In this document: positions 32,361 to 37,491 of the stretch, piece by piece | How the letters are laid out: the number at the start of each line of letters is the position of its first letter | How positions within the stretch are numbered: the stretch's first letter is position 1 | Source of the DNA: Tenacibaculum lutimaris | GTDB lineage: Bacteria > Bacteroidota > Bacteroidia > Flavobacteriales > Flavobacteriaceae | NCBI RefSeq assembly: GCF_003610735.1 | Contig: NZ_RAQM01000006.1 | Location: 146,274 to 210,273 of the forward strand | Reading direction: 5' to 3' | Length of the DNA stretch: 64,000 nucleotides | Notes under the pieces: generated by a model | What the model was told of the DNA's origin: nothing | The model's input: the letters and a program-made list of their open reading frames with translations, nothing else | Databases searched by the model: none | Made by a program: the position numbers and the translations under genes

Positions 32361-33016
32361 TATAAAGATATATACCAAGTAGTTCTAAACCACAACGAAT
32401 TCTTTTTTGGTGTATCTAGCAATTTTCCTAAACGATAGTCAAGTCCAAACTCTAGTTTGTCTTTTTTAGAAAGCTGGTATCCTAAATATGGAGATAATCG
32501 TACCTCTAAATCTTCTTCATTAAACTGCCACAAATATTCATTTGACAACTTTACATACCATTCTTTAACATCTACTTTATCTCCTGACAATGCTTTTTCT
32601 AAAGAGGCTCGATAACGAGTTCTGTATTGAGGTTTAGCTCCTGATTCAAAAAATTGTTCAAAACCAAAGCGATGCCCTAATTTAAGTGCATCAAAACTTT
32701 GCACTAAATTAAAATGTTGAACTGTACGATGAATAATATCATCATCTTTAAATCGAATAATATACCCTACATTAAAAGATTTATTCACATCTGATTTTAT
32801 CGAAAAAATACTGGATACATCTACTAAACTATGAGAAAAAGCAAACTCGTCTTCATAAAAAACTTCCCTTGCCTCTATACTATTTACCCATTTTGTAGTT
32901 GAAGATGTTTTTGCTGATACTACTACTTTAGGTAACCAACCTGATGTAAAACTTGTTTGCCCATTAACCGACACTACAAACAATACAAGCACTAAAAACA
33001 CAAGTCCCTTTTTCAT
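32360..33016 (-). CDS. DUF2490-like outer-membrane beta-barrel protein
   Basis: 218 residues with a signal peptide (MKKGLVFLVLVLFVVSVNG, cleavage before QTSF). The rest alternates polar and aromatic residues as in beta-barrels and ends in an aromatic strand (LWFRTTWYISL), typical of outer-membrane proteins. Motifs RFGFEQFFE and YRTRYR resemble DUF2490 proteins. The function is not known. Its ATG overlaps the stop of the gene ahead by one base (TAATG), so the two are translationally coupled. Confidence 0.75.
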   Translation of the reverse strand: MKKGLVFLVLVLFVVSVNGQTSFTSGWLPKVVVSAKTSSTTKWVNSIEAREVFYEDEFAFSHSLVDVSSIFSIKSDVNKSFNVGYIIRFKDDDIIHRTVQHFNLVQSFDALKLGHRFGFEQFFESGAKPQYRTRYRASLEKALSGDKVDVKEWYVKLSNEYLWQFNEEDLEVRLSPYLGYQLSKKDKLEFGLDYRLGKLLDTPKKNSLWFRTTWYISL

Positions 33017-33579
33017 TAGAATTCTAAATTTAGTGAATTAGACGGGGCAAACTTTAATTGCTTTACAATTGTTCCGTCAGGGTTAATAAGTACTTCATAT
33101 AAACTTGTAGATTGTGTTTTTCTTCCTTTAAGTACTATTTCATAAAGCGTGTCTATTTTATATTCTTTATCACCGTTAATCAGCCCTTTCAATGTTTGCT
33201 CATCCGATTTCCATTGAACTTGAATTTTCCTTATCGTAAACTTTTCAAATTCATTCTTTAATGAATTTTCAATATTCTTTCTAATAGATGGTTCTATCTG
33301 CTTCCATTTAATCTTCTTTTCAACATCTAGCACATTACCTTTTATATCAAATTCTACACTGTACTTATAACTATTTTTATAAGACTTTGCTTCAATCGCT
33401 TTTCCATCTTGACTTTCTTCCATGTACCATTTTACTTTTTTATCAAACTTACATTGTTTAATAAAGTTTTGTGCTTTTAACGGAACTTCTTCTAATGAAA
33501 TTCGAAACTCACGCTCAAATTTTTCTTGAGAAAACCCCGAAAACACACAGAATAACAAAAGTGTTATTATAAATCTCAT
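33016..33579 (-). CDS. Secreted protein of unknown function, PepSY-like size
   Basis: 187 residues with a signal peptide (MRFIITLLLFCVFSGFS, cleavage before QEKF). The mature part repeats a charged strand pattern (KVKWYMEESQDGKAIEAKSYK) reminiscent of PepSY-like proteins, but I cannot assign a family. It is the first gene of a two-gene unit with the DUF2490-like barrel, and divergent from blaI/M56 with 143 bp between the starts, so it might also be under the BlaI-type repressor. Confidence 0.75.
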   Translation of the reverse strand: MRFIITLLLFCVFSGFSQEKFEREFRISLEEVPLKAQNFIKQCKFDKKVKWYMEESQDGKAIEAKSYKNSYKYSVEFDIKGNVLDVEKKIKWKQIEPSIRKNIENSLKNEFEKFTIRKIQVQWKSDEQTLKGLINGDKEYKIDTLYEIVLKGRKTQSTSLYEVLINPDGTIVKQLKFAPSNSLNLEF

Positions 33580-33660: not shown

Positions 33661-33721
33661 TCTACACTTGTAGAATTAAAAATTATTTCTACATTTGTAG
33701 AGTTAATTCTAATCTTGTAGA
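33661..33721 (+). promoter_or_regulatory. BlaI/MecI-type operators overlaid on the promoter
   Basis: There are three dyads of form TCTACA-NN-TGTAGA: 33661-33674 (perfect), 33688-33701 (perfect) and 33708-33721 (right half perfect, left half degenerate). BlaI/MecI repressors are known to bind TACA/TGTA dyads. The TTG at 33668-33670 and TACATTTG at 33690-33697 are separated by exactly 19 bases, an ideal Bacteroidota promoter, so -33 lies in the first operator and -7 in the second. The third ends one base before the ATG. Confidence 0.88.
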
Positions 33722-33722
33722 A

Positions 33723-34091
33723 ATGCAATTATCAAAAACCGAAGAACAAGTAATGCAATACTTATGGAAGCTAAAAAAAGCTTTTATGAAAGATATTTTA
33801 GCTGAATTTCCCGAACCGAAACCTGCAACAACAACTGTTGCCACCTTATTAAAAAGGATGAAGGATAAAGGTTTTGTAGATTATAAACTATACGGAAAAT
33901 CAAGAGAGTATTTTCCTATGGTTAAAAAATCAGATTACTTTTCGAAGCATGTAAACGGATTAATTAAAAACTTTTTTAACAATTCTGCGAGTCAATTTGC
34001 TTCATTTTTTACTGAAAAAACGGATTTATCGGTTTCAGAATTGGAAGATTTAAAAAAGATCATCGATCAGCAAATTAAAAAGCAACAATAA
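33723..34091 (+). CDS. BlaI/MecI/CopY family transcriptional repressor
   Basis: 122 residues of standard length. The winged-helix domain (MQLSKTEEQVMQYLWKLKKA, TVATLLKRMKDKGFVDYKLYGKSREYFP) is followed by a helical C-terminal dimerisation region with an ELEDLKKIID motif. It should repress itself and the downstream M56 protease through the dyads just upstream, and be inactivated by that protease. The stop overlaps the next start (TAATG), which indicates a coupled operon. No beta-lactamase lies nearby, so the natural target is probably a cell-envelope response. Confidence 0.93.
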   Translation: MQLSKTEEQVMQYLWKLKKAFMKDILAEFPEPKPATTTVATLLKRMKDKGFVDYKLYGKSREYFPMVKKSDYFSKHVNGLIKNFFNNSASQFASFFTEKTDLSVSELEDLKKIIDQQIKKQQ

Positions 34092-36310
34092 TGATAACGT
34101 ATTTTATCAAATCAGGAATTTGTTTAGCGTTGTTACTTGCCTTTTATCACTTGATATTAGAGCGAGAAAAAATGCATCAATTCAACCGATTTTATCTGTT
34201 GGGTAGCGTGTTGTTTTCCTTTTTAGCTCCATTGTATAAAATATATATTGAAGTTACCCCACAAGCTTCCGAACTATTTGTTCCAATGATTGTTGACAGC
34301 AACACGGCAACAGAGATTGTTACTTCTCAAACACAAGAAATAGATTATATGCTATATCTAGCCTTTGCTTATACAATAATTGCTTTGATTCTTTTGGTTC
34401 GCTTTATAAAAAATCTGGTTAGCATTTATCTCAAAATTAAACATCATCAAAAAATTAAAAAAGAAAAAGCTACCATCATCTTGGTTGATGACGCTATTAG
34501 TCCACATACATTTTGGAACTACATTTTCATTAACAAAGAAGAGTACAATTCAAATAAGATTGAAACTGAACTTTACACACACGAATTAACACATGCCTTA
34601 CAAAAACACACGTTTGATGTATTACTTATTGAGTTTTTACAGGTGATTTTTTGGATAAACCCTACGTTTATATTCCTTAAAAAAGCTATTAAATTAAACC
34701 ATGAATTTTTAGCTGATAACAAGGTAATTACAATTCATAAAAATACTACCGAGTACCAATATTTACTATTAAATAGAGCTGCTTGGAACAACGATTATTA
34801 CTTGGCCAGTAATTTGAATTATTTATTAACTAAAAAAAGATTACTAATGATGACAAAACAAAGTTCTCGTACCAAAATCTTACTAAAAAAACTGGCAGTA
34901 ATACCGGTACTAGCTGGATTTACATTACTTTTTGCCGAAAGAGTAGAAGCCTATGAAAGCGCAAATAATATCGAGTTTTTAGATGCTGTTATTGAGAAAA
35001 AAACAAAAGAAAACCTTTTTATTGCTTCAATTGAAAGGGACGACAACCATGTTCATTTAAAATGCTACAATTGTGAAAGATGGTCAGGACTAGAAATCCC
35101 TTTAAATAAAGAATATACTATTACAGATTGGGGATTTTCAACAGATAAACACGTAGAAATTGCAAAATATGCTTTTACCATTAAAGCAACAGAAAAAGAA
35201 GTTATTTTAAAAGGAATAAAAAATATTTCTTGGAATAGCATAATACCACCTTTAAACAACAAAAAACATTTCTTTAATCAACAAGGTTCTCTAGAGTACA
35301 AAAAAGATAATTTAGAAGAAGTAATTAAGCAATATGTCAAATTAGAAGCTCCAACCCTATTTATTGATCAAAAAACTAACAACTATTACCTAAATAACAG
35401 ATTAATAAATATTGATAATATCAGAAGTGAATTTCTTAAAGAAACAAAAGGTGAAAAATCAAATTTAAAAATTTTTACTACAGGAAAAGTTTTAATGTCT
35501 CTTATAAAAACTATTCGTGAGAAACTGAGTAAAAAATATTTGGATGAGATTGTGTTAACTAATAGTCTTTCATATTTATATGAGGATGGAGTTTCTTTTA
35601 AAACTTCAAAAATTGAATATGATTCAATTCCAGCATTAAAAAGAATTGTTAACCGTAAAAATGAGACTTTTACTTATACAACAAAAGATGGTAGAGAAAT
35701 TACTAAAAAGATATCTGAATTAACTGAAGAAGAAAAGAAAATACTACCACCACCTCCACCTCCAGTTAAATTAAAACAGAAGACTTTATCTAATAAACTA
35801 TTCCAAGATTTTAAAAACACTAAAAAGTATGCCATTTGGATTGACGGAAAAGCAGTTAACAACAATGTTTTAAATAGTTATAAAAACACCGACTTTTATA
35901 ACTACACTGGAAGTTTTGTTCACAAAAATGCAAGAAGTAAGCGTTTTCCTCAAGAGTATCAATATCAGTTAAACACAAAAGAATACATACAAAAAATCAA
36001 AAAACAGTTACCACCTCCTCCTTCAAAAAATAAAAAGAACGTTAATTCCGAGAAAAAATTAGGGTGGATAGTAGGTAATAAAGCACACGAGATTAACATA
36101 CCTAATAAATCAAATGAAAAACTTAATGTATTTGATATAATTAGTCATGATAAAATTTTAAATAATTATACTATCAAAAGATATTTTTTAAACAACAAAG
36201 AAGTTCCAGAGCAACACCTTAAAAAAATAGACTACTTGAATTTGGAAACTACAAGGATGAAAAAGATAAGCGATGAAGAAATTAACATATACATAACCAC
36301 AAAAAACTAA
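34091..36310 (+). CDS. M56 family metallopeptidase, BlaR1-like sensor with long variable C-terminus
   Basis: 739 residues. N-terminal membrane helices (about 1-25, 33-53 and 88-110) precede the zinc-protease motif HELTH (164-168) and the later NHEFLADN glutamate; another membrane segment follows at about 270-285. The C-terminal about 450 residues are extracytoplasmic and hold PPPPPP and PPPP linkers with two related modules (KYAIWIDGKAVNNNVL, KLGWIVGNKAHEI). There is no penicillin-binding sensor domain like that of staphylococcal BlaR1. By family knowledge it cleaves the BlaI-type repressor on a signal. What the C-terminus senses is unknown. Confidence 0.88.
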   Translation: MITYFIKSGICLALLLAFYHLILEREKMHQFNRFYLLGSVLFSFLAPLYKIYIEVTPQASELFVPMIVDSNTATEIVTSQTQEIDYMLYLAFAYTIIALILLVRFIKNLVSIYLKIKHHQKIKKEKATIILVDDAISPHTFWNYIFINKEEYNSNKIETELYTHELTHALQKHTFDVLLIEFLQVIFWINPTFIFLKKAIKLNHEFLADNKVITIHKNTTEYQYLLLNRAAWNNDYYLASNLNYLLTKKRLLMMTKQSSRTKILLKKLAVIPVLAGFTLLFAERVEAYESANNIEFLDAVIEKKTKENLFIASIERDDNHVHLKCYNCERWSGLEIPLNKEYTITDWGFSTDKHVEIAKYAFTIKATEKEVILKGIKNISWNSIIPPLNNKKHFFNQQGSLEYKKDNLEEVIKQYVKLEAPTLFIDQKTNNYYLNNRLINIDNIRSEFLKETKGEKSNLKIFTTGKVLMSLIKTIREKLSKKYLDEIVLTNSLSYLYEDGVSFKTSKIEYDSIPALKRIVNRKNETFTYTTKDGREITKKISELTEEEKKILPPPPPPVKLKQKTLSNKLFQDFKNTKKYAIWIDGKAVNNNVLNSYKNTDFYNYTGSFVHKNARSKRFPQEYQYQLNTKEYIQKIKKQLPPPPSKNKKNVNSEKKLGWIVGNKAHEINIPNKSNEKLNVFDIISHDKILNNYTIKRYFLNNKEVPEQHLKKIDYLNLETTRMKKISDEEINIYITTKN

Positions 36311-36317
36311 TTTTGTT

Positions 36318-36344
36318 AAAAGCCTCTTAAATGAGGCTTTTTTT
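36318..36344 (+). terminator. Terminator of the blaI/M56 operon
   Basis: AAAAGCCTC (36318-36326) and GAGGCTTTT (36333-36341) pair around a 6-base loop, followed by T's. It lies 8 bases after the M56 stop codon. Confidence 0.88.
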
Positions 36345-36390: not shown

Positions 36391-37491
36391 ATGTTAAAAC
36401 GATTTTTCCTTCTTTGTTCTGGAGCTGATTTAGATTTGCTACAAAAATGTGCTAATGGAGAGCAAAATAAATATGCGGGTATTGGTGCTACAGTTTTCTT
36501 CACTGCACTTATGGCAACTATTGCATCTGCTTACGCTTTGTATACTGTTTTTGACAATATGTATACTTCCGTTTTCTTCGGAATTGTTTGGGGGTTGTTA
36601 ATTTTTAATTTAGATAGATTTATCGTTTCTACCATTAAAAAAAGTGAATCTAAACGAAAAGAACTTATACAAGTACTTCCTAGATTATTATTAGCAATGA
36701 TTATTGCTATCGTAATCTCTAAACCGTTAGAATTAAAAATTTTTGAAAAAGAAATCAACTAAGTGTTATTGACTGAAAAAAACCAAATGACATTAGACAA
36801 CAAAACTCAAATTGCGCAACAATTTACTCCTGAAATAGATAAAATAAATACTGAAATCGCTTCATTAAAAAACGAGATTATCTCCAAAGAACAGGAAGTC
36901 AATACACTTTATGAAACTTATATTGCGGAAGCTGAAGGAAGAAAGGGAACTAAACTTCTTGGTAAAGGTCCTGTTTATAAAGAAAAAAGAGAAAAACACG
37001 ATGTTACTCTTGCTGAATTGAATCAGTTAAAAACTGAAAACACCAATAAGATTCAACAAAAAGAAGCTGCTATTGTTAATTTACTAGAAAATCAGAAACT
37101 GAAAGAAACACAAAGCCAACCTATTATTTCTAATTTTGATGGACTAATGGCGCGCGTTAATGCTTTAAACAAATTACCTTGGCTACCTTCCTTCTTTATA
37201 TTCCTTTTATTTTTAGCGATAGAAACTGCTCCTATTTTTGCGAAACTCATCAGTTCAAAAAGTGAATACGATTATAAATTGGAAAATTATGAATCACAAG
37301 TAAAAACTTGGATTCAGCAACAAGCTCATCAAAGAGCAGCTATTTTACAAACCGACAAGGATCTTAACGATAAAGTTTACTCCGATTTAAAAACAGAAGA
37401 AGAACTACACAATTACAAACAAAAAATGGCTCGTAACTTAATGAAATTACAAACCGATTCATTTTATAAAAATCAACAGGAGAATTTGTAA
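36391..37491 (+). pseudogene. DUF4407 membrane protein gene split by an in-frame TAA
   Basis: The frame is continuous from the ATG at 36391 to the stop at 37491 except for one TAA at 36760-36762. The first part (123 residues) has the DUF4407 start (LLCSGADLDLLQKCANGEQNKYAGIGATV) and three membrane helices, including the NLDRFIVS motif. The second part (242 residues; GTG at 36763 could restart it) has a long coiled coil (about 10-105) and the last membrane helix (SFFIFLLFLAIETAPIFAK). Together, 366 codons match normal DUF4407 length. A CAA-to-TAA change is the simplest explanation, but readthrough, a split two-protein form or a sequencing error are also possible. Confidence 0.8.

Follow-up and report, generated by a model that had tools for sequence, protein, structure and literature searches.

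The BlaI/BlaR1 systems and their operators with a TACA-NN-TGTA core are already known and are described in earlier work (PMC7253601, PMC3305447). The BlaI of S. aureus is cleaved between Asn101 and Phe102, and BlaR1 cleaves itself between Ser283 and Phe284 (PMC9834060). The operon described here lies in what we call the window, the whole 64-kb stretch of DNA from the marine flavobacterium Tenacibaculum lutimaris that was analyzed, and it resembles the BlaI/MecI repressors with the bla/mec operators of S. aureus and B. licheniformis in the Pfam family of its repressor, the TACA-NN-TGTA core, the M56 gene in the operon and the presence of several operators. It differs from them in that its operators contain the -33 and -7 boxes of a Bacteroidota promoter, that no β-lactamase or PBP2a gene was found under its dyads, that the outer TC...GA letters of these dyads are about as conserved as the core and that the operon is apparently its own sole target in this genome. 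BlaR1 (8exp/8exq) is the best match of the window M56 protein in both sequence and fold and has HExxH and ExxxD in common with it, but the C-terminal 441 residues of the window protein hold no detected penicillin-binding sensor, and their length varies greatly among relatives.

A further likeness is to the cop box of CopY/CopR, in which the core TACANNTGTA stands within a longer operator, but unlike CopY the window BlaI has no Cys-x-Cys metal site and not one cysteine among its 122 residues. A paper on Bizionia reports three BlaI/MecI/CopY genes without the copper site (PMC11213822). A search of one open-access library turned up nothing published on the operators of BlaI in Bacteroidota, most subscription journals lying outside that search. 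What appears to be new at this locus, as judged from sequence comparison, is the combination of promoter boxes inside the operators, a regulon apparently limited to the operon itself in this genome and a protease in which no sensor of a known type was detected.

Results

Dyads and promoter at the window locus

Two perfect TCTACA-NN-TGTAGA dyads hold the -33 TTG and the -7 box TACATTTG of the predicted promoter (Table 1). The spacer between these elements is exactly 19 bases, an exact match to the primary-sigma promoter of the Bacteroidota (-33/-7; TTG/TTTG, ~19 bases, TAnnTTTG). Direct reading and shuffling confirm this arrangement, which the sequence-only reading had proposed; two perfect dyads stand in the window, whereas 100 dinucleotide shuffles gave 0.01 on average and never as many as two. 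The spacing that it gave for the dyad centers, 27 bp from dyad 1 to dyad 2 and 20 bp from dyad 2 to dyad 3, agrees with the coordinates. A 19-base spacer is usual for Bacteroidota promoters and agrees with the spacers at the loci of relatives. Published Flavobacterium -7 boxes extend from -12 to -5 (PMC9723704, PMC6847099), which would put the transcription start where Table 1 has it and give a 21-base leader containing dyad 3. The claim that this third dyad touches the ATG held only in part: a weaker dyad is present, but it stops one base short of the start codon and is fixed relative to the -7 dyad. Dyads with up to two mismatches are only mildly unusual in the window (8 against a mean of 4.0, with 8 or more in 4 of 100 shuffles), so dyad 3 would not stand out by itself and is carried by its conservation.

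Table 1. Features of the blaI-M56 operon in the window
Feature	Position	Strand	Remarks
Dyad 1, TCTACACTTGTAGA	33661..33674	.	Perfect TCTACA-NN-TGTAGA dyad; spans the -33 element
-33 element TTG	33668..33670	+	Read from sequence; inside dyad 1
Dyad 2, TCTACATTTGTAGA	33688..33701	.	Perfect TCTACA-NN-TGTAGA dyad; spans the -7 element
-7 element TACATTTG (TAnnTTTG)	33690..33697	+	Inside dyad 2; published consensus boxes
Predicted transcription start (+1)	33702	+	Inferred; published G at -5 placed on 33697
Dyad 3, TCTAATCTTGTAGA	33708..33721	.	10 of 12 fixed positions; inside the predicted 21-base leader
BlaI-family repressor, 122 aa, helix type TTVAT	33723..34091	+	PF03965, E 4.9e-29
M56 membrane metalloprotease, 739 aa, long C-terminal extension	34091..36310	+	PF05569, E 3.5e-10
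Terminator-like hairpin AAAAGCCTC-TTAAAT-GAGGCTTTT	36318..36341	+	Behind the operon; by eye; absent from the list of a simple scan

Conservation and spacing of the dyads before blaI

We compared 81 loci, the window and 80 others taken by similarity of the BlaI protein alone, so that the upstream DNA of these 80 was unselected. The set includes Tenacibaculum, Polaribacter, Aquimarina, Flavobacterium, Maribacter, Roseivirga and Mucilaginibacter, and the six best relatives of the window BlaI, all from Tenacibaculum, share 93-99% protein identity with it. The sequence TCTAnnTTTGTAGA occurs no more than 200 nt before the blaI start in 77 of the 81 loci (over 200 rounds of shuffling, 0.005 loci on average and at most 1); in L038 there is one mismatch, and the BlaI frame is just 56 codons long. 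Dyad 2 is present in 80 loci and missing in L046, dyad 1 is present in 51 and dyad 3 in 60, the last count resting on offsets 19 and 20 from dyad 2 and including two loci that score just 8/12. Among the 80 loci with dyad 2, 29 are without dyad 1 and 20 without dyad 3, and these two dyads are thus not obligatory.

The dyads were picked by score on 12 fixed letters, so their conservation is partly built in, with the two center letters left unscored. The center of dyad 2 is TT in 79 of 80 loci, as TTTG requires, and that of dyad 1 is CT, TT or GT, with the final T that TTG requires in 51/51. At dyad 3, where there is no promoter box, the center is mixed, with 10 different dinucleotides in 60 loci, the freedom to be expected of a dyad that is purely an operator. 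The TTG is kept in 24 of the 29 loci that have dyad 2 without dyad 1 (spacer 19 in 22, 20 in 2), and the other five have no TTG at spacers 18-21. Across all three dyads, dyad 3 away from the promoter included, the outer TCTA and TAGA hardly vary. From the center letters, the TTG retained without dyad 1 and the outer letters of dyad 3, the constraints on promoter and operator can be told apart at the sequence level. The -7 box carries a G at -9 in 11 of the 80 loci, among them L032 (Polaribacter) and L079 (Arenibacter), giving TATGTTTG in place of TACATTTG, a variant that weakens the left half-site of dyad 2. A study of Flavobacterium johnsoniae reported a G at -9 to be virtually absent from -7 boxes, and these 11 loci may have weak promoters.

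A downstream scan at offsets of 14-40 from dyad 2 gave matches of at least 9/12 in 62 of 80 loci, at offset 20 in 57, at 19 in one and at 40 in four. The four at offset 40 are blaI coding sequence, and 57 of the 58 matches in the leader thus stand at 20 bp. Upstream (offsets 14-60, at least 10/12, best per locus), the distance was 27 in 24 loci, 28 in 23, 29 in 3, 30 in 1 and 53 in 1. Between dyad 3 and the ATG, 58 of the 60 loci have 0-5 bases and the other two have 24 and 428. A role of dyad 3 as a start-codon element was rejected, since its distance to dyad 2 is kept and its distance to the ATG is not. Dyads 2 and 3 are thus locked about two helical turns apart, which suggests that bound dimers would sit next to each other on one face of the DNA, and the gap between dyads 1 and 2 follows the promoter spacer.

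The BlaI and M56 proteins and their neighbors

The window BlaI matches PF03965 with 101.4 bits (cut-off, 22.6) over profile positions 1-115 of 115. Its relatives in the PDB are MecI and BlaI (phmmer to MecI 1okr, E 1.2e-12), and its own promoter has the TACA-NN-TGTA core in dyads 1 and 2, where it would be used by BlaI. Phe102 of the S. aureus BlaI cleavage site aligns with F96 and Asn101 with F95; this Asn is not conserved here, and S94-F95-F96 is present in 81 of 82 rows of the helix type A defined below, the remaining row having a gap.

The M56 frame overlaps blaI by one base, the last of its stop codon. Such a frame lies behind blaI in 76 of 81 loci, with HExxH in 76/76; our script found none in L011, L014, L023, L038 and L074, of which L023 ends early. 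Residues H164, E165, H168, E205 and D209 (HExxH, ExxxD) are invariant among 30 aligned M56 sequences. A profile search of PDB sequences at E ≤1 gave two matches, both BlaR1 (E 8e-6), and at E ≤0.001 the fold matches of the M56 model were four, all BlaR1 (8exq, 1.5e-5); against 8exr, the membrane/protease chain of BlaR1, the model had a TMt of 0.67. The C-terminal 441 residues had no convincing match at E ≤5 in either Pfam (one weak proline-rich match) or the PDB sequences (one chance match), and no penicillin-binding sensor was thus detected in the protein. The model of this part is poor (mean pLDDT 70.2, pTM 0.42, 163 residues below 50), with only weak fold matches beyond BlaR1, which leaves room for a very distant sensor fold. 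Complete M56 frames in the set range from 407 to 995 aa. The C-terminal extension (34985-36307 in the window; compared in L008-L087) varies strongly in length and frequently has proline runs (PPP). It also contains repeated 'GK.IS...' segments, which we take to resemble the plug units of TonB receptors, and among its fold matches is a weak one to the Cir receptor (E 1.4).

Behind the M56 gene lies a DUF4407 (PF14362) gene (36391-37491) whose frame is split by an in-frame stop at 36760-36762. The order blaI-M56-DUF4407 recurs among relatives, and 47 DUF4407 loci of relatives, found by a short motif, read through the point of the stop; the gene looks broken in this genome, unless the stop is an assembly error. 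The divergent gene on the other side of the dyads (33016-33579) had no Pfam match. Its control as the main role of the dyads was rejected, as at least two kinds of divergent neighbor occur among relatives that share the dyads.

Recognition helix and dyad type

For a survey of recognition helices, we aligned 126 BlaI proteins (the window, the 80 similarity loci and 45 from PF03965 searches and L129; 14 of 140 were unparsed and dropped) and searched the 700 nt upstream of each for dyad types. Proteins with helix type A (P..TT[VIL]AT) had TCTACA-type dyads at 80 of 82 loci, and one of these loci also had an ACTA-N6-TAGT match, which is within chance. For helix type B (..NT.ST), ACTA-N6-TAGT was found at 27 of 28 loci and the TCTACA type at 0 of 28. 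The 16 proteins with other helices had no TCTACA type, with ACTA-N6-TAGT at 8, a CGAA..TTCG type at 3 and none of the three types at 5. The two types are fully distinct at residues 37 (T/N), 40 (A/S) and 45 (R/other) and nearly so at residues 36 and 44, A being compared with B. These counts are not independent, since similarity to the window BlaI was what brought in 80 of the 82 type A proteins, which are related. Across the aligned proteins, the dyad type follows the recognition helix, and the same correspondence is seen between the two BlaI genes of this genome.

The second of these genes is in L129 (G000:C1:33500-39500), where the dyads ACTAAAAAATTAGT and ACTAATTTTTTAGT stand before a TATATTTG box and are followed by a small lipoprotein-like gene and those for BlaI, M56 and a TPR-like repeat protein. 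Like the window locus, L129 has BlaI followed by an M56 gene and 14-bp xCTA-N6-TAGx dyads just upstream of a TATATTTG box, but its dyads are ACTA-N6-TAGT, its helix is NTVST instead of TTVAT, and its -7 box lies beside the dyad and not inside it. By a count made by eye, 15 of 60 family genomes (e.g., G128, G148, G165 and G166) carry two PF03965 genes in opposite orientation on a single contig, separated by some 15-42 kb, a recurrent neighborhood. BlaI-family genes were present in 34 of 61 genomes drawn from Bacteroidota.

Sites elsewhere in this genome

The source genome (2.87 Mb, 14 contigs) has two perfect dyads, both at this locus. One-mismatch dyads occur at 12 more places, as many as in the reversed control (12), and all 12 lie within reading frames (64 to 422 codons as cut by our script). 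No second TCTAnnTTTGTAGA was found across the genome, and TCTANNTTTGTAGA has a single place, the window locus. The -7 box plus one half-site (TANNTTTGTAGA) showed no excess over the genome (24 places against 22 in the control), and a dyad pair spaced 20 bp apart with up to three mismatches was found nowhere else in the genome, the control also giving 1. The loose pattern TCTANNNNNGTAGA gave 40 lines over both strands of the genome and 28 in the control. Of these, 22 loci were read, ten further lines being left out save C6:5312, which was read as L126 among the one-mismatch sites; 20 lie within reading frames, one is dyad 3 of this operon and one, L402, is intergenic. L402 (G000:C1:519066-519079), a possible weak extra target, is the half-conserved dyad TCTAAATTAGTAGA; 3 bases behind it begins a secreted-protein frame of 149 codons, whose start resembles a signal peptide. 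A plasmid search gave no match.

Taken together, the scans with perfect, one-mismatch, loose and paired patterns indicate that strong sites mark one operon in this genome. A broad regulon with strong sites was rejected here on the loose-pattern result and on the placement of the one-mismatch sites in reading frames. The pattern TCTACA-NN-TGTAGA had been put forward as a means of finding the regulon, and it does mark this promoter, but the sole target that it found is the operon itself, with L402 as a weak candidate. The operon is apparently the only clear target in this genome as far as its sequence tells.

Sites in the genus and family

The perfect dyad occurs, among the matches listed, in 44 of 58 genomes of the genus. 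Among those matches, 29 loci besides the window were considered, one per genome, of which 14 stand before blaI, 14 are inside reading frames and one, L115, is covered solely by a 68-codon frame. A further 18 genus sites from the matches listed, chosen by their bases and not randomly, comprised 15 in frames, 1 before blaI and 2 intergenic elsewhere (L378 and L379, the latter being the same place as L115).

We searched 299 family genomes with a twin pattern, TCTANNNTTGTAGA-N(11-16)-TCTANNTTTGTAGA, and found it in 124 of them at 129 places, against 0 of 299 genomes in the reversed control. We read 127 of these places (30 + 97 loci), the other two being the window and G020, which is also before blaI. 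In 123 of the 127, a relative of BlaI (53-83% identity) is encoded downstream in the same orientation, 13 to 163 nt away and in only three cases at more than 33 nt. The gap between the twin dyads was 13 in 36 places, 14 in 90 and 15 in 1. In G249, three blaI genes have twin dyads, one product being 69% identical to the window BlaI.

Four of the 127 twin places are not before blaI, so that control of the operon alone is no rule for the family. In L191 (G134), the twin dyads stand before a gene for a PF00144 β-lactamase-family protein (E 1.6e-63), which is followed by an OmpW gene; since PF00144 also includes esterases and peptidases, the product is not established as a true β-lactamase. In L196 (G262) they precede a 301-aa lipoprotein-like frame, in L197 (G262) a short M56 gene (321 aa) immediately precedes them and frames for small secreted proteins follow, and in L263/L287 (G313) they precede a lipoprotein-like frame of 559 aa that matches DUF4886 and TPR weakly. 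All three genomes also encode BlaIs that are 75-76% identical to the window BlaI. G262 has an extra BlaI/M56 pair (L384), whose M56 has 321 aa; behind the pair come twin dyads and a series of partly similar small secreted proteins. The description of the window genes as a non-β-lactamase pair stands for the window locus, where no sensor domain was detected, but it does not extend to the relative with twin dyads before the PF00144 gene.

Discussion

It is very likely that the three dyads are operators of the adjacent BlaI and that the operon represses itself through coverage of its promoter and leader, with the M56 protease relieving the repression. With BlaI dimers bound to dyads 1 and 2, the -33 TTG and the -7 TACATTTG would be covered, and because these promoter elements are written inside the dyads, repressor and RNA polymerase would contend for one set of bases. 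A further dimer, on dyad 3 (about +7 to +20), would bind jointly with that on dyad 2 and also block early transcription. On the model of BlaR1, the C-terminal part of M56, if exported, would sense a signal, and the protease would then cut BlaI near S94-F95-F96 and lift the repression; BlaI and M56 levels would rise until the signal fades. Repression by overlap, which the sequence-only reading had deduced from the window alone, gains support from the comparison with relatives, where the layout is kept before blaI, the helix matches the dyad and the two kinds of constraint are separable.

We consider it rather unlikely that the dyads, as BlaI operators, serve a larger regulon in this genome through weaker or differently spaced sites that escape our patterns. 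Relatives do have targets other than blaI at 4 of 127 twin places (the PF00144 gene and lipoprotein-like frames), two of the 18 selected genus sites lie in intergenic DNA ahead of genes other than blaI, and one weak intergenic site, L402, is present here. Against such a regulon stand the absence of a second TCTAnnTTTGTAGA from the scan, the location of all 12 one-mismatch sites and of 20 of the 22 loose-pattern loci in frames, and the 20-bp pair with up to three mismatches, which occurs only here, even if the control also gave 1.

A palindrome alone names no protein, and BlaI as the binder is deduced from sequence, so another regulator might be thought to occupy the dyads. This is very improbable given that twin dyads precede blaI in 123 of 127 places, that the dyad type tracks the BlaI helix (80/82 and 27/28) and that TACA-NN-TGTA is the published operator core of the BlaI family (PMC7253601). 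It is scarcely credible that the dyads are promoter letters plus chance, or hairpins in RNA or DNA. Half of dyads 1 and 2 does coincide with promoter letters, but the outer TCTA/TAGA, mostly non-promoter, is nearly invariant at the three dyads, an invariance that the score-based picking favors somewhat; moreover, two bases are too few for the loop of an RNA hairpin, and the predicted start lies downstream of dyads 1 and 2.

A repressor/protease circuit of this kind might exist in several Bacteroidota classes and be mostly self-controlling, with M56 an output as well, its fast-changing C-terminal part being needed on demand, a possibility that we offer tentatively. It is equally conjectural that, with M56 as an output, the loop would be closed by operator and promoter being one piece of DNA. 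The pair in G262, with an M56 of 321 aa without a long extension and twin dyads before small secreted-protein genes, accords with M56 as an output.

BlaI-family genes in Bacteroidota tend to carry labels as regulators of β-lactam resistance. As the branch studied here seems mostly to regulate itself, this label is doubtful for it. For this branch, the comparison offers a putative operator code, with the TTVAT helix going with TCTACA dyads and the NTVST helix with ACTA-N6-TAGT, and a twin pattern that locates the promoter in whole genomes, with no hit in the reversed control. The promoter itself might find use as a compact inducible promoter for flavobacteria.
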